Source: Meridianimarinicoccus zhengii
Lineage (GTDB): Bacteria > Pseudomonadota > Alphaproteobacteria > Rhodobacterales > Rhodobacteraceae
DNA length: 64,000 bases
Assembly: GCF_003254465.1 (NCBI RefSeq)
Contig: NZ_QDFI01000003.1
Coordinates: 1-64,000 of the forward strand
Direction of reading: 5' to 3'
Each line of letters begins with the position of its first letter. Positions within the stretch are counted from its first letter, which is position 1. A program made the translations under genes and the position numbers. Positions 7,390 through 37,729 of the stretch are shown piece after piece. The notes beneath the pieces are model-generated. The model had not been told where the DNA came from. It searched no databases and was given only the letters and a program-made list of their open reading frames with translations.

Positions 7390-8640
7390 TCACGGTACCG
7401 CCCGCGGCGCCAGCCGCGCATCGATGGCGCGGAGCTGGTCGGGGGTGAACAGCCGTTCCACCGGCATCAAACCGTCATCGGCAGGCGGACCGGCGCGGAA
7501 CATGTCGCGCGCGACGGCCCGGCGCTGTTCATCCCGCAAGAGCCGCGCCGCGGCACCGCGCCCCGCCTCGGTCGCCACGCCATCGGGCCGTGCGAATCCG
7601 GCGCGCACCATCAGCCGCAGGGTGTAGCGTTCGGCGATTGCATCGCCGCGGGCCAGCGCCAGCAGCCCCTGCCGCCGATGCACCTGCGCCTGGTAGCGGT
7701 GATGCCGCGCCGCCGCCGCCAGCACGCCGCGGGCGGGTGCGGCCAGCAGCGACACGGTGAACAGCCCCGCCGCCACCAGCACGATGATCGGCCCTGTTGG
7801 CAGGTCGGGGGCGGAGGCCGAAAGCGCCGCCCCGACATAACCCGACAGCGCGCCAAGCCCGCCCGCGATCCACACCAGCCGCCCGCTGCGGTCGGTCCAG
7901 AAGCGCGCCGTGACCGCAGGGATCACCAGAAGCGCCACGGTCAGCACCAGCCCCACGATCTTCAGCCCGATCACGGCGACGGCGGTGACGATGGCCATCA
8001 CCGCCATGTCGATCCGCCCCACGTTCCAGCCCGTCGCGGCGGCGAAGCCCGGATCGAAGGCCACCAGCGTCATGGGCCGCCGCAGCGCCCAGACGGCGGC
8101 CACGACCAGCGCCCCGCCCACGGCGATGATGAGCGCGTCCTGGCGCAGCATCCCGGCGGTCGACCCCAGAAGAAACCCTTCCAGCCCCGCGGCACGCCCC
8201 TGTCCCATCGTCTGGATCACGGTCAGCAGCACGACGCCCAAGCCAAAGAACGACCCCAGCACCGCGCCGATGGCCGCATCCTCGGGCAGGCGCGTGGCCC
8301 GCGCGATCCAGCCCACGACCCAAAGCCCGACCAGCGCCGACAGCGCCGAACCGAGCAGCAGCCCCGGCAACCAGCGCCCGTCGCCGCCCATGGCCACCAT
8401 GACCATGAACGCGAGCGCCACGCCCGGCAGCGTCGCATGGGCCATCGCGTCTGACACGAGCGCCCGGCCCCGCAACACGAGGAAACTGCCCCCCGATCCG
8501 GCCGCGAACCCCAGTGCCGCCGCCCCGAGCGTCACCAGCGCGGCATTGTAGCCCGCCCCCAGCGTCAGCGCCTGCCAGAAAGCGCCCACCGGATCAGCCC
8601 GCCAGACCCGCAAGATGCGTGGCCCCCAGCCGTCCGCCAT
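7390..8640 (-). CDS. Metal ABC transporter permease with C-terminal regulator-like extension
   Basis: First permease of the metal importer, 416 residues. The membrane part carries the family motif SDAMAHATLPGVALAF and ends near residue 285. The remaining ~130 residues are soluble and contain a winged-helix-like stretch (ALARGDAIAERYTLRLMVRAGF) and a C-terminal DGLMPVERLFTPDQLRAID segment, like the DtxR-like tails on some MntC/TroC permeases. ATG at 8640 has GGAGG six bases upstream, so the gene overlaps the ATPase gene by 47 bp. The tail may sense cytoplasmic metal, but this is inferred from similar proteins. Confidence 0.85.
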   Translation of the reverse strand: MADGWGPRILRVWRADPVGAFWQALTLGAGYNAALVTLGAAALGFAAGSGGSFLVLRGRALVSDAMAHATLPGVALAFMVMVAMGGDGRWLPGLLLGSALSALVGLWVVGWIARATRLPEDAAIGAVLGSFFGLGVVLLTVIQTMGQGRAAGLEGFLLGSTAGMLRQDALIIAVGGALVVAAVWALRRPMTLVAFDPGFAAATGWNVGRIDMAVMAIVTAVAVIGLKIVGLVLTVALLVIPAVTARFWTDRSGRLVWIAGGLGALSGYVGAALSASAPDLPTGPIIVLVAAGLFTVSLLAAPARGVLAAAARHHRYQAQVHRRQGLLALARGDAIAERYTLRLMVRAGFARPDGVATEAGRGAAARLLRDEQRRAVARDMFRAGPPADDGLMPVERLFTPDQLRAIDARLAPRAVP

Positions 8641-16580: not shown

Positions 16581-16624
16581 GAGTCCTACAAGAATCCTAC
16601 AGAAGTCATACGAGAGTCATACAC
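16581..16624. repeat. Array of four 11-bp direct repeats (array 1)
   Basis: Four adjacent 11-mers: GAGTCCTACAA, GAATCCTACAG, AAGTCATACGA, GAGTCATACAC. They lie in the convergent gap between bhcR and the replication initiator gene. The 11-bp period is one helical turn, as in plasmid iterons or multi-site regulator operators. A second array with the same core (GAGTCATAC) is at 33744-33787. Confidence 0.85.
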
Positions 16625-32669: not shown

Positions 32670-33611
32670 ATGAGCAGCTATTCCGTCACTGCTGCCAGCC
32701 CCGCGCAGAAATGGCTCGCCGGCACGCTGGTCATCGCCTACGCGCTCATCACGATCATGCCGCTTCTGTGGATCATCGCCACCGGGTTCAAGTCGCCCTC
32801 CGACGCCATCGCCTATCCGCCGAAAGTCACGTTCGAACCGACGCTGGAAGGTTACGTCAACCTCTTCACCACCCGCACCCGCGTGACCCCGGAAACGCTG
32901 GAACAACTGGGCGAACCGACCACGTGGTACGACCGCATCGTGCGCCAGTACGACATGGTCATCGCCGGGCCGTCCCGCTTCGGGGAACGCTTCCTCAACT
33001 CGGTCATCATCGGCTTCGGCTCGACCTTCCTGTCGGTCTTCCTCGGCACACTCGCGGCCTATGCATTCTCGCGCTTCAAGGTGCCGCTCAAGGACGACCT
33101 GCTGTTCTTCGTGTTGTCCACCCGGATGATGCCGCCCATCGCCGTCGCCATCCCGATCTTCCTGATGTTCCGCACGCTCGGGCTGTCCGACACCCATGCG
33201 GGCATGATCCTGCTCTACACGGCGGTGAACCTGTCGCTCGCCGTCTGGCTGCTGAAAGGCTTCATCGACGAGATTCCCCGCGAATACGAAGAGGCCGCGC
33301 TGATCGACGGCTACACGCGCTTCCAGGCGTTCTACAAGGTCGTGCTGCCGCAGGCCGCGACGGGCATCGCCTCCACCGCGATCTTCTGCCTGATCTTCGC
33401 GTGGAACGAATACGCCTTCGCGGTGCTGCTGACCTCGGGCAATGCGCAGACCGCGCCGCCCTTCATCCCGACCATCATCGGCGTGGGCGGGCAGGACTGG
33501 CCCGCCGTCGCCGCCGGGGCGACGATCTTCCTCGTGCCGGTGATGGTGTTCACGATCCTGCTGCGCAAGCACCTGCTGCGGGGGATCACCTTCGGGGCGG
33601 TGCGGAAATGA
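32670..33611 (+). CDS. ABC transporter permease (MalG/UgpE type)
   Basis: 313 residues with six hydrophobic segments and the EAA loop EYEEAALIDGYTRFQAFYKVVLPQAATG. It has an extended periplasmic loop after the first segment (residues ~45-110). GGAGG lies five bases before the ATG at 32670. Second permease of the sugar/polyol importer. The last 23 bases of the gene are repeated 102 bp downstream. Confidence 0.88.
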   Translation: MSSYSVTAASPAQKWLAGTLVIAYALITIMPLLWIIATGFKSPSDAIAYPPKVTFEPTLEGYVNLFTTRTRVTPETLEQLGEPTTWYDRIVRQYDMVIAGPSRFGERFLNSVIIGFGSTFLSVFLGTLAAYAFSRFKVPLKDDLLFFVLSTRMMPPIAVAIPIFLMFRTLGLSDTHAGMILLYTAVNLSLAVWLLKGFIDEIPREYEEAALIDGYTRFQAFYKVVLPQAATGIASTAIFCLIFAWNEYAFAVLLTSGNAQTAPPFIPTIIGVGGQDWPAVAAGATIFLVPVMVFTILLRKHLLRGITFGAVRK

Positions 33612-33713
33612 TCGCAACACGCGGCATCCCTGGGCTCTGCCCGTTCCGACCTGAAACGCGCCTCCGGAGCGTTTCCAAGTCGGTCTTCGTCCTTCGGGGC
33701 GGTGCGGAAATGA
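33589..33713 (+). repeat. 23-bp direct repeats flanking a hairpin-bearing 79-bp segment
   Basis: The final 23 bases of the permease gene (33589-33611, beginning CCTTCGGGGCGG) recur exactly at 33691-33713, including the stop codon. The 79 bases between contain an imperfect inverted repeat with arms CGACCTGAAACGC and GCGTTTCCAAGTCG. This is a local tandem-type duplication or the footprint of a small inserted palindromic element. Confidence 0.75.
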
Positions 33714-33743
33714 CGGGCCCCATGACCGATCCCGCGCCGACCA

Positions 33744-33787
33744 GAGTCATATGCGAGTCATATGCGAGTCATACGCGATTCATACAC
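33744..33787. repeat. Array of four 11-bp direct repeats (array 2)
   Basis: Four adjacent 11-mers: GAGTCATATGC twice, GAGTCATACGC, GATTCATACAC. The last unit differs from the last unit of array 1 at 16581-16624 by one base. It lies upstream of the small membrane protein and ATPase genes within the ABC importer locus. Confidence 0.88.
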
Positions 33788-33812
33788 CCGTTTTCCGCCG
33801 CCGGAGGCCCCC

Positions 33813-34001
33813 ATGCGTGACTTCCTCAGCGGCCTCGCCCGCCTCCGCCGCGGCCCGTGGGAAGCCGTCGCCTCCGCACTGATCGGGCTCGGCGTGGTGA
33901 TGCTCATGCAGCCCTTCGTGATGGTCGCCTACACCTATTCCTTCATCGTGACGCTGACCGGGACGGTGATGTTCCTCATCGTGTCCCACTTTCCCGAGTG
34001 A
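33813..34001 (+). CDS. Small membrane protein within ABC importer operon
   Basis: 62 residues with two hydrophobic segments (AVASALIGLGVVMLMQPFVMVA and FIVTLTGTVMFLIV) and a basic N-terminus. CCGGAGG precedes the ATG at 33813. It lies between the second permease and the ATPases, the place where glycerol-type importers (glpSTPQUV of rhizobia) also encode a small membrane protein, though the sequence is not clearly the same family. It may be an accessory subunit. Confidence 0.65.
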   Translation: MRDFLSGLARLRRGPWEAVASALIGLGVVMLMQPFVMVAYTYSFIVTLTGTVMFLIVSHFPE

Positions 34002-34004
34002 CCC

Positions 34005-35102
34005 ATGGCCCGTATTGAAATCAGGAACTTGCGCAAGGATTTCGGCAGTTTCAACGCCGTGAAATCCTCCAGCTTCGTGATCGAGGACGGCGAATTCTTC
34101 ATGCTGCTCGGCCCGTCCGGCTGCGGCAAGACCACCACGCTGCGGATGATCGCGGGGCTGGAGCTGCCCACCTCGGGCGAGATCCTGATCGACGGCGAGG
34201 AGGTCAGCCAGCGCCCCGCTTCCCAGCGCGACATCGCCTTCGTCTTCCAGATGTTCGCGCTCTACCCCCATATGAACGTCCGCCGCAATATCGCCTATCC
34301 GCTTGTTTCCCAAGGGCTTCCCAACGCGCAGGTCACGGCGAAGGTGGCCGAGGTCGCCCGCATCCTCGGGATCGAGGACATCCTCAACCGCCCCGTCGGT
34401 GGCCTGTCCGGCGGCGACCGGCAGCGCGTCGCCCTTGGCCGCGCCATCGTCCGCGACCCCAAGGCCTTCCTGATGGACGAACCCTTGGGCGCGCTCGACG
34501 CCGAATTCCGCGAACGCATGGCCGAGGAGTTGCGCGCGCTCCACGACCGCATGGGCGCCACCACCGTCTACGTCACCCATGACCAGCTCGAGGCGATGCA
34601 GATGGGCGACAAGATCGTCGTGATGAATCATGGGGTTGTGGAACAGTTCGGCGTCCCCCAGGACATCTATGACTGGCCCGCGTCGCTGTTCGTCGCCGAT
34701 TTCATCGGCTCGCCGCCCATGAACGTGCTGCGCTTCGACGGGGCCGTCTCGCCGGGTGACGGGGCCGTCACGCTGGGCGACGCCCGCTTCGACATCCCCG
34801 CCCTGCGCGAAGGGGCCAACGGCACGCTCGGGCTGGGCGTGCGGCCCGAACACATCCGGCTCGACGACGCCGCCCCCTATCGCGGGGTGGTGGAAGCCGT
34901 TGAATACCTTGGCACAACCCAGATCGTGACGCTGGACACGCCGCATGGCGAGATCAAGGCGCGCACGCCCTCCGACCAGCCCGTGCAGGCGGGTGCACGC
35001 ACCGGCATCGCGCTCGACCCGCGGCGGCTGAGCCTCTTCGACACCGCCACGGGCCGTGCGCTGCGCTCGGCCGGCAACGAAAGGGTGCTCGCCCATGGCT
35101 GA
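34005..35102 (+). CDS. ABC transporter ATP-binding protein 1 (MalK/UgpC type)
   Basis: 365 residues. Walker A GPSGCGKTT, signature LSGGDRQRVALGRAI, Walker B FLMDEPLGALDAE, switch His in YVTHDQLEAM, then a C-terminal OB-fold regulatory domain (LGVRPEHIRLD). It starts three bases after the small membrane protein stop. One of two ATPases, which suggests a heterodimeric motor as in GlpST. Confidence 0.92.
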   Translation: MARIEIRNLRKDFGSFNAVKSSSFVIEDGEFFMLLGPSGCGKTTTLRMIAGLELPTSGEILIDGEEVSQRPASQRDIAFVFQMFALYPHMNVRRNIAYPLVSQGLPNAQVTAKVAEVARILGIEDILNRPVGGLSGGDRQRVALGRAIVRDPKAFLMDEPLGALDAEFRERMAEELRALHDRMGATTVYVTHDQLEAMQMGDKIVVMNHGVVEQFGVPQDIYDWPASLFVADFIGSPPMNVLRFDGAVSPGDGAVTLGDARFDIPALREGANGTLGLGVRPEHIRLDDAAPYRGVVEAVEYLGTTQIVTLDTPHGEIKARTPSDQPVQAGARTGIALDPRRLSLFDTATGRALRSAGNERVLAHG

Positions 35103-36090
35103 AGTCACGCTGTCCCACATCACCAAGCGTTTCGTGCGCGAAACGGCCTTGTCCGACGTTTCGCTGACGATCCCCGATGGCAGTTTCGTCGTGCTGCTCG
35201 GCCCCACCGGCGCGGGCAAGACCACGACTCTGCGCCTCATCGCTGGGCTCGACCGGCCCGACGCGGGCGACATCACCATCGGCGGCGCGTCGGTGCTGGA
35301 TCTGACGCCCGCACAGCGCGACGTGGCGATGGTGTTCCAGCAATACTCGCTCTACCCGCACATGACCGTGCGCGAGAATCTCGCCTTCCCGCTCCGCTCC
35401 CCCGTCCTGCGCACGCCCGAGGATGAAATCACCCGCAAGATCGCCGAAGTGGCCGAGGTCCTGCACATCGCCCACAAACTCGACAACAAGGCGACGGCCC
35501 TGTCGGGCGGCGAGATGCAGCGGGTGTCGATCGGACGGGCACTGGTGCGCGACCCGCAGCTGTTTCTGATGGACGAACCGCTGTCATCGCTCGATGCGAA
35601 ACTCCGCTCAGATCTGCGGGTGGAGCTGAAACGCATCCACGCCGCCCTCGGCGCAACGCTCCTTTACGTGACCCACGACCAGATCGAGGCAATGACCATG
35701 GCGACGCATGTGGGCGTGCTGGATCGCGGGCGGCTGGTACAGTTCGGCCCCCCGCGCGAGATCTACGAGAACCCGGTGAACCTGACCGTGGCCGGGCGAC
35801 TCGGCCTGCCGCGGATCAACGCGCTGCCCGCGGACCTCTTTCCCGGCGCGCCCGCTGGGGCGGCGACAATCGGGCTTCGCCCGGAACACATCGTTCATGG
35901 CGAGGGACAGGCGGCGCAGGTCACACGCGTCGAACATCTGGGCGACCAGACGCGCCTGCACCTGTCCCTTGCCGGGCATGACATCGTCACCCTGACCGAC
36001 CCGCACACCGACCTTGCGTTGGGCGACAGCCTCGCCATCGCGCCCCGAAACCCGCTCTATTTCGCCGCCGACGGCGCCCGCATCGCCTGA
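35095..36090 (+). CDS. ABC transporter ATP-binding protein 2 (MalK/UgpC type)
   Basis: 331 residues. Walker A GPTGAGKTT, signature LSGGEMQRVSIGRAL, Walker B FLMDEPLSSLDAK, switch His in YVTHDQIEAM, and a shorter C-terminal domain (GLRPEHIVHGEG). Its ATG at 35095 lies eight bases inside ATPase 1, so the two are coupled. Two different ATPases in one importer are typical of the glycerol/polyol subclass. Confidence 0.92.
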   Translation: MAEVTLSHITKRFVRETALSDVSLTIPDGSFVVLLGPTGAGKTTTLRLIAGLDRPDAGDITIGGASVLDLTPAQRDVAMVFQQYSLYPHMTVRENLAFPLRSPVLRTPEDEITRKIAEVAEVLHIAHKLDNKATALSGGEMQRVSIGRALVRDPQLFLMDEPLSSLDAKLRSDLRVELKRIHAALGATLLYVTHDQIEAMTMATHVGVLDRGRLVQFGPPREIYENPVNLTVAGRLGLPRINALPADLFPGAPAGAATIGLRPEHIVHGEGQAAQVTRVEHLGDQTRLHLSLAGHDIVTLTDPHTDLALGDSLAIAPRNPLYFAADGARIA

Positions 36091-36106: not shown

Positions 36107-37729
36107 ATGACCCAGTTCATCAACACCCGCGACACGGTCGTGACCGAGGCGATCGACGGGCTGCTGCGTGCCGCAGGCGGCAGGCTGGGGCGGCTGGACG
36201 GGTACCCGCACATCAAGGTCGTGCTGCGCACAGACTGGAACCGGGACCGCGTGGCGCTGGTATCGGGCGGCGGGTCCGGCCACGAACCGGCCCATGCGGG
36301 CTTCGTGGGGCAGGGGATGCTGGCGGCGGCGGTCTGTGGCGACGTGTTCGCCTCGCCCTCCGTGGATGCGGTTCTTGCGGGGATCCTCGCGGTGACCGGC
36401 CCGGCGGGCTGCCTGTTGATCGTCAAGAACTACACCGGCGACCGGCTGAACTTCGGGCTGGCGGCGGAACGGGCACGCGCCTTCGGGCTGAAGGTCGCCA
36501 TGGTCATCGTCGATGACGACGTGGCCCTGCCCGACCTGCCGCAGCCGCGCGGGGTGGCAGGCACGCTGCTGGTGCACAAGATCGCGGGCGCGCTGGCCGA
36601 GGACGGCGCGGATCTCGACACCGTCGCCGCCGCCGCGCAGGGCGTGATCGACGGGGTCGTGTCGCTGGGCATGTCGCTGTCGACCTGCACCCTGCCGGGC
36701 GCGGCACGCGAGGATCGCATCCCCGCGGGCATGGCCGAACTGGGCTTGGGCATCCATGGCGAGGCCGGGGTGGAACAGGTCCCCTTCGCCGATGCGCGCG
36801 GCGCGATGGGCATGGTCGCCGACCGCTTGGCCGGGCACCTGGACGCCGGGCCGCATGTGGCGCTTCTGAACAATCTCGGCGGGGCGACGCCGCTGGAAAT
36901 GTCGGTACTGGCCGAGGAACTGCTGGCCTCCGGCATCGGGACGCAGATCGAAAGCCTCGTGGGGCCGGGGGCGCTCATGACCTCGCTCGACATGCGCGGG
37001 TTTTCCGTGTCGCTCCTGCCGCTCGACGACGCCCGCCGTGCGGCGCTGGCCGCCCCGGTGGCGCCCGCCGCCTGGCCCGGCTGCAACCCGGTGAGTGCCG
37101 TGGACGTGCGGCCGCTGCCCGACGGGCTGGTGCCGATCAAGCCGATGCCGTCGGCCGATCCGGCCCGCCGGGCGTATCTGGCGAAATGCTGCTCGCTGTT
37201 CATGGGCATGGAATCCGACCTGAACGCGCTCGACGCGAAATCCGGCGATGGCGATACGGGTTCGACGCTGGCGGGCGCCGCGCGGGCGCTCGACGCGGCA
37301 CTCGACCGGCTGCCGCTGGCGGATCTCACGCAGCTCTACCGCGCCATCGGGCTGGAGCTGAGCCAGACCATGGGCGGCTCGTCCGGCGTGCTGCTGGCGA
37401 TCTTCTTCACCGCCGCGGGGGACGCTGCCGCCAGCGGGCACGGCCCCGTGGCGGCGCTGCGTGCGGGGCTCGACCGTGTGCAGCAGGTGGGTGGTGCAAA
37501 TCCCGGCGACCGGACCATGGTGGATGCGCTCATGCCCGCGCTCGATGCGCTCGACGATGGCTACGGGCCGGCAGCGGCGGCGGCGCGCGCGGGGGCGGAT
37601 CGCACCGCCACGATCACCCGGGCCAAGGCCGGGCGCGCCAGCTATGTCGGGGCGGACAAGCTTGCGGGCCACAACGATCCGGGCGCCGAAGCCGTCGCGC
37701 GCCTGTTCGAGATGCTCGCGGCGGGCTGA
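36107..37729 (+). CDS. DAK-family kinase (dihydroxyacetone kinase-like, DhaK-DhaL fusion)
   Basis: 540 residues. The DhaK-type domain has VSGGGSGHEPAHAG and the substrate-binding His217 (LGIHGEAGVEQ), to which a ketose binds covalently; the ATP-binding DhaL-type domain (from about residue 355) has DAKSGDGDTGSTLAGAA and MGGSSGVLLA. ATP-dependent enzymes of this fused form phosphorylate dihydroxyacetone, glyceraldehyde, erythrulose or apulose. It follows ATPase 2 by 16 bp and ends the locus, so it likely phosphorylates the imported or isomerised sugar. Confidence 0.88.
   Translation: MTQFINTRDTVVTEAIDGLLRAAGGRLGRLDGYPHIKVVLRTDWNRDRVALVSGGGSGHEPAHAGFVGQGMLAAAVCGDVFASPSVDAVLAGILAVTGPAGCLLIVKNYTGDRLNFGLAAERARAFGLKVAMVIVDDDVALPDLPQPRGVAGTLLVHKIAGALAEDGADLDTVAAAAQGVIDGVVSLGMSLSTCTLPGAAREDRIPAGMAELGLGIHGEAGVEQVPFADARGAMGMVADRLAGHLDAGPHVALLNNLGGATPLEMSVLAEELLASGIGTQIESLVGPGALMTSLDMRGFSVSLLPLDDARRAALAAPVAPAAWPGCNPVSAVDVRPLPDGLVPIKPMPSADPARRAYLAKCCSLFMGMESDLNALDAKSGDGDTGSTLAGAARALDAALDRLPLADLTQLYRAIGLELSQTMGGSSGVLLAIFFTAAGDAAASGHGPVAALRAGLDRVQQVGGANPGDRTMVDALMPALDALDDGYGPAAAAARAGADRTATITRAKAGRASYVGADKLAGHNDPGAEAVARLFEMLAAG

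Follow-up and report, generated by a model that had tools for sequence, protein, structure and literature searches.

The 11-bp array at 33744-33787 of the window, the whole 64,000-nucleotide stretch of Meridianimarinicoccus zhengii DNA that was analyzed, is a copy of an element that is dispersed over the chromosome and oriented relative to replication. In the reading that we favor, to which we give a probability of roughly 40%, such arrays are polar docking sites for a putative DNA-binding factor that co-evolves with them and is linked to replication or segregation.

The array lies on the + strand and consists of two identical units, GAGTCATATGC at 33744-33754 and GAGTCATATGC at 33755-33765, followed by GAGTCATACGC (33766-33776, 1 mismatch) and GATTCATACAC (33777-33787, 3 mismatches). 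Direct reading and Tandem Repeats Finder (period 11, 3.7 copies, 93% matches, score 68) agree on the two exact and two near copies described in the original prediction. The array occupies an intergenic gap of a UgpAEC-like transporter operon, 132 bp after the stop codon of the second permease gene of a UgpAE-like ABC transporter (32670..33611, +, gene call and profile match). The ATG of a predicted 62-aa small protein gene (33813..34001, +, home-made gene call), the product of which had 0 matches in Pfam or NCBIfam, is 25 bp 3' of the array and is followed by two UgpC-like ABC ATPase genes (34005..36090, +) and a dihydroxyacetone kinase gene (36107-37729). The 132-bp stretch that separates the permease gene from the array folds no better than its shuffles (z -0.35). 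An 18-bp sequence from the end of the permease gene, GGGGCGGTGCGGAAATGA, is directly duplicated (33594-33611 and 33696-33713), and the ∼84 bp enclosed by the copies contain an imperfect palindrome (AAACGC...GCGTTT), an arrangement that resembles an old insertion; in the related genome G002, the second copy is degenerate.

At the orthologous transporter, the array recurs in two relatives, each time in the dialect of that genome, and is missing from a third. The G002 counterpart (L094) reads GAGTCCTACAG GAGTCATATGG GAGTCATATGC GAGTCATATAC at the corresponding position behind the permease stop codon, and the G006 counterpart (L101/L107) is found there in a TCCGAT dialect. The permease stop codon overlaps the small-gene start in G004, where the array is absent. 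The permease portion of the query had no strong match in G001, G003, or G005.

A second array in the window, GAGTCCTACAA GAATCCTACAG AAGTCATACGA GAGTCATACAC (16581..16624, +, read from the sequence), is located 17 bp after the stop codon of bhcR, a gene assigned by NCBIfam NF045644 (397 bits, cut-off 350) and, by its name, presumably encoding the regulator of the β-hydroxyaspartate cycle. As had been noted beforehand, the two arrays end in nearly the same unit, GATTCATACAC and GAGTCATACAC being one base apart. Both are on the + strand, and the GC skew of the window is negative at both. The window shows no excess of single 11-bp units (8 matches with ≤2 mismatches, compared with 10.0 expected from shuffles); it is the tandem arrangement, not unit frequency, that exceeds chance. 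Most units in this genome contain GANTC, which we take to be the CcrM methylation site, so that 16581-16624 and 33744-33787 carry methylatable sites 11 bp apart. CcrM methylation was rejected as a common denominator of the arrays, as GANTC is mostly missing from the dialects of G003 and G006.

In the 4.6-Mb genome of the window (G000, 220 contigs), the pattern AGTCATAn4AGTCATA has 66 exact matches, its reversed control has 0, and a three-unit pattern with at most 1 mismatch has 96. A hand count after merging the pattern listings gave ∼53 distinct arrays of at least three units. The fetched loci of this genome, which were collected with a TCATAY-leaning pattern and annotated with a home-made codon-score gene caller, held 54 arrays, 52 of them intergenic and two inside genes (valS and one other, which we take to be cryptochrome/photolyase-like). 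Exactly four units are present in 33 of these 54 arrays, the others having three, five, six, or seven; the same number is found in 34/40 arrays of G003, 18/18 of G006, 8/8 of G001, and 8/10 of G002. Arrays often follow soon after stop codons (median 26 bp), their core-gene neighbors include argG, thrS, serS, leuS, lepA, and murB, and one lies inside an operon, upstream of a leuD-like gene. One array has a BrnA-type antitoxin gene (L068, 4514-4924) on its upstream side. Four composite arrays of five to seven units (L043, L052, L055, and L073) join GACTCCTACAG units, as in G001, to a TCATAY block, as if two dialects stood side by side, with the GACTCCTACAG units looking older.

The strand on which the arrays lie follows GC skew, used here as a proxy for the replication strand. 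Local skew is negative on the array strand for 49/54 arrays of G000 (p = 4e-10), 31/39 of G003, 14/16 of G006, 8/10 of G002, and 5/6 of G001. The majority coding strand showed no association with array strand, the two agreeing in 29/54 cases in G000 and 22/39 in G003. Strand composition would not explain this polarity, given that the array strand of the G000 units is not rich in C. In two other genera, with skew taken over 20-kb spans, it was negative for 18/20 arrays of G275 (a sample of 20 from 41 distinct arrays) and 18/20 of G041 (20 from 32), although skew is a weak proxy in the latter. G275 is a complete 3.60-Mb chromosome in which the skew flips at a dif-like site at 990,995, which we take to be a putative dif (21/28 match to Escherichia coli dif). 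By hand count, the complement of the G275 arrays is directed towards this site in 10/13 cases on its left (0-0.99 Mb) and 9/10 on its right (1.0-1.9 Mb). Within ∼0.9-1 Mb of the putative dif, 19/23 are thus directed towards it, elsewhere 10 minus-strand arrays stand against 8 plus-strand ones, and density is about even. As a strand control, canonical KOPS favor the G-rich strand by 67:30 in G275 and 96:46 in G000; in G041 they occur 53 to 74 and do not follow skew. In the G003 loci L251-L286, canonical KOPS GGGNAGGG lie on the G-rich strand 46 to 6, a bias above that of G275 and G000. The usual orientation of the arrays relative to replication hints at a signal for the machinery of replication or chromosome segregation.

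Polarity is imperfect, which counts against docking sites, as in the 10 versus 8 arrays outside the two arms of G275. The prediction that arrays on the wrong strand would decay failed: these fit their dialect slightly better than the others (0.06 versus 0.20 mismatches per core, 18 versus 107 arrays, p = 0.04), although for many of them skew is too near zero to call the strand. This lack of decay speaks against strong selection on polarity.

The same strand data bear on a role in gene expression. Direct repeats of 11 bp suit transcription factors of the OmpR/PhoB type, and the array could be an operator for its neighboring genes, the transporter included, as its repeats and its 25-bp distance from the small-gene ATG would allow. 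Between co-oriented genes, arrays pooled over five species are co-directional in 48 cases and antisense in 22, which also fits an operator, but 21 others lie in convergent gaps and 11 inside genes (all hand sums), and some lie within operons. The neighbors are unrelated housekeeping genes in mixed contexts that form no coherent regulon, and array strand tracks skew rather than coding, leaving an operator improbable. An operator for the transporter was rejected as the main reading because the same arrays adjoin unrelated genes. On the same grounds of unrelated neighbors and a strand that tracks replication instead of transcription, the common regulon suggested by the original prediction finds no support.

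The mild co-directional excess would also suit a transcript site for an RNA-binding protein or small RNA, as would the weak folding of bare arrays from G000 and G003 (mean z -1.5 and -1.6). Arrays of G006, on the other hand, have a mean z of about 0, the folding signal fades once flanks are included, and strand again tracks skew rather than transcription. Rfam 15 returned 0 matches in 33500-34100 of the window up to E = 1 and, for 7 array loci, nothing but a tRNA. We regard an RNA-level element as very improbable.

Some plasmid centromeres also contain 11-bp direct repeats, and the arrays share this feature with ParB/ParR sites. It had accordingly been proposed that the array links the transporter locus to plasmid maintenance, or that centromere-like sites are spread over a plasmid. 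The sites are indeed spread, but over whole chromosomes, beside core genes and inside valS. Among the 30 of 55 called window genes that were scanned, replication and partition families gave no match except a weak MipZ-like one inside a Wzz/tyrosine-kinase protein, and the array region had no match in 72,556 plasmid records searched with the low-complexity filter on. A link to plasmid maintenance is not supported, and plasmid centromere sites are the least probable of the explanations weighed here, with hardly any likelihood left to them. A 201-base query containing a G275 array had a single, weak match in the plasmid records, to Streptomyces.

Species of the genus differ in how the core of the array is spelled. 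A dialect-neutral pattern of four YCNNAY cores 11 bp apart has matches in 6/7 genus genomes, the exception being the incomplete (74%) G005; reversed controls gave 0 matches in these genomes, except for 2 in G001. The core is TCATAY in G000, mostly TCATAT in G002, TCCTAC in G001, TCCGAY with RAAAG spacers in G003, TCCGAT in G006, and CCATAC/CCAGAC in G004. There are six matches to the pattern in G004 and seventeen in G001, some of the latter chance-like. When cores were counted with this pattern over the nine commonest cores per genome, TCATAY made up, among the matches listed for fetched loci, 154/213 cores in G000, 28/43 in G002, 0/268 in G003 (where both strands match), and 0/85 in G006.

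Array positions are shared between these genomes. In all six species valS contains a four-unit array at identical codon positions of a variable loop, in register between the species and in its own dialect each time, and the photolyase-like gene contains one in G000, G002, and G001. With orthology defined by one or two flanking genes of at least 50% identity, so that paralogues are possible, the positions shared with G000 number 8 pairs in G002, 6 in G003, 7 in G006, and 5 in G001, among them places at argG, thrS, serS, murB, lepA, dinB, and a DUF4170 gene. The shared flanking gene is always upstream in both genomes or downstream in both, never crossed. Some loci of G001, G003, G004, and G006 (valS and the photolyase-like gene) had been collected through orthology; without orthology-guided collection, shared positions amount to 8/10 in G002, 5/39 in G003, 6/17 in G006, and 3/6 in G001 (hand count), the chance expectation for 39 being ∼0.5 if some 4,400 genes are assumed. 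A conserved array position could, by itself, be plain descent.

Arrays at orthologous positions do not resemble each other more than others do. The mean core distance for orthologous arrays compared with all loci is 2.19 versus 2.21 between G000 and G003, 2.46 versus 2.29 between G000 and G006, and 1.54 versus 1.35 between G000 and G001. Between G000 and G002 it is 1.06 for orthologous and 1.08 for unrelated arrays, with within-genome values of 0.99 and 1.03, so that these two dialects are hardly separable; distances within genomes range from 0.32 to 1.03. Because orthologous arrays are no more alike than unrelated ones, dialect is a property of the genome and not of the locus. The array sets change in concert, the core being replaced at all positions together. 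In the valS tree, G000 stands beside (G002, G001), and G001, which groups with G002, nevertheless has another dialect; therefore, dialect does not strictly track descent.

We favor docking sites because the arrays have a near-fixed number of helically phased units, mostly lie between genes, share positions across species, and differ in dialect. The element usually has four cores, TCATAY in G000, and their 11-bp spacing corresponds to one helical turn, which places them on the same face of the helix. Four copies of one putative sequence-specific protein would occupy the element as dsDNA, and drift in the specificity of this protein would drag the chromosomal sites along. These features would be explained most simply by joint binding of the four cores by a protein with a specificity that has changed in each lineage. 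The polarity suggests cooperation of the complex with a machine that travels along the chromosome; polarity would be kept if the bound complex acts with a replication fork or an FtsK-type segregation translocase. On this model, the array at 33744-33787 would not regulate the transporter and would merely be located in the operon gap. Both window arrays belong to one family, and the single protein proposed to bind them could be their shared reader. Against docking sites count their 50-200 copies, which are few for an orienting motif, and the hairpin-forming sequence that precedes the repeats in G041 and G275 (judged by eye, unscored), because a pure dsDNA site would not need such hairpins.

Related arrays are present across the family. 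The three-unit TCATAY pattern was found in 4/394 family genomes, at a single place in two of these, and CCGAC three times at 11-bp spacing was found in 51/388, with at least five places in 25/388 and a maximum of 195 in G288 (hand count); one of the 25, G138, resembles simple repeats. For a reversed control (CAGCC at 11-bp spacing), the count corresponding to the 25 genomes was 3/388. This control is itself frequent in G217 (74), G354 (22), and G382 (34), where it may represent further dialects. Arrays with an 11-bp period also lie in or beside valS in Shimia aestuarii (L155), a Defluviimonas MAG (L167), Litoreibacter meonggei (L188), and an uncultured Roseovarius (L215). The ValS loop between the WNA.RFAEMN and NRWI-like motifs (L151-L230) holds 11-bp arrays of other dialects and, in L152, L168, and L224, other repeats, in a comparison that omits 5 of 80 named loci without a motif match (L180, L182, L198, L216, and L228). 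This loop seems to serve, in several genera, as a landing site for genome-specific repeats. We tentatively extend the docking-site reading to a family-wide, replication-polar signal, in which the specificity of the reader of an 11-bp-phased four-core docking array would change between species of one genus while places and orientation are kept.

In a bolder variant of this extension, the arrays are physically rewritten, a ssDNA or RNA copy of the current dialect overwriting old arrays at the lagging strand. Taken without a host function, such a self-spreading or self-homogenizing repeat, the copy of which anneals to the lagging-strand template, would yield polarity, concerted dialects, and fixed positions by itself. 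It explains the concerted core change and the polarity as well as docking does, and the motif strand would be that of the nascent lagging strand, the sense in which annealed ssDNA is productive. The hairpins upstream of the G041 and G275 repeats also suit it, as does the location of arrays at tolerant sites, both intergenic (52/54 in G000) and in the variable ValS loop with the repeats of other genera. Conversely, no donor locus was found, the Y1/REP-associated transposase (PF01797) is absent from 13/16 genomes, wrong-strand arrays show no decay, and near-fixed unit number is explained less well than by docking. In addition, all 78 matches in G041 lie on a 3.79-Mb contig of the 4.4-Mb genome, and 0/32 distinct arrays lie elsewhere (hand count). 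Taken together, we consider spreading by overwriting the main rival of docking sites and somewhat less likely than these.

On the features tested, the arrays resemble AIMS/KOPS in polarity and DUS in dialects and are a member of neither class. AIMS (Architecture IMparting Sequences) are defined in the available text of PMC5993296. Like AIMS and KOPS, the arrays show replication-strand bias and spread over the chromosome, their complement in G275 being directed mostly towards the putative dif, with GC skew as the proxy. Unlike these single octamers, which also occur in coding DNA, the arrays are ∼44-bp four-core elements, 52/54 intergenic in G000, with species dialects. The abundance and bias of KOPS/AIMS rise towards the terminus; in G275, array density is about even, and 19/23 arrays near the putative dif are directed towards it, with 10 against 8 elsewhere. 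The available text of PMC12616744 describes DUS/USS as short genome-wide motifs with clade-specific dialects around a core that are thought to co-evolve with a receptor. The arrays share the genome-wide distribution and the clade-specific dialects, but DUS/USS are single motifs present in hundreds to thousands of copies, and the arrays are tandem, four-core, and replication-polar, with tens to 195 matches per well-populated genome and dialects that change within one genus and not strictly along the valS tree. REP/BIME elements are likewise dispersed, intergenic, often just past stop codons, and species-specific in sequence; the arrays differ from them as direct repeats without a palindrome or, in the G000 genus, a consistent fold, and with differing dialects at orthologous positions. 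A REP/RAYT system was rejected, as PF01797 was found in 3/16 genomes only and in none of G000, G002, G003, G006, G041, G275, G334, and G288. A search mainly of the open-access literature, with subscription papers mostly outside it, found no description of such arrays.

Polar chromosome signals are usually short and slow-changing and are found through oligomer counts. The arrays would add a multi-core polar element, in a large and well-studied bacterial family, with a specificity that differs between sister species. If they are read by a protein, G000, G002, G003, G006, G001, and G004 form a natural series for the joint change of a DNA-binding protein and dozens of its sites. If they are overwritten through the lagging strand, they would represent a mode of concerted evolution that, to our knowledge, has not been described for chromosomal repeats. 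Either way, they offer roseobacter genetics a testable candidate segregation or replication signal.

Two pattern scans of viral contigs gave 11 and 4 stretches, and a third, with an exact pattern, gave 0. Among these 15 stretches, only L298 resembles a real, varied array, and most others are near-perfect or differently built repeats. L298, a viral-classed contig (IMGVR_UViG_3300037791_000022), contains a four-unit ATACCGACG-type array at ∼7480-7519, which is possibly host flank.
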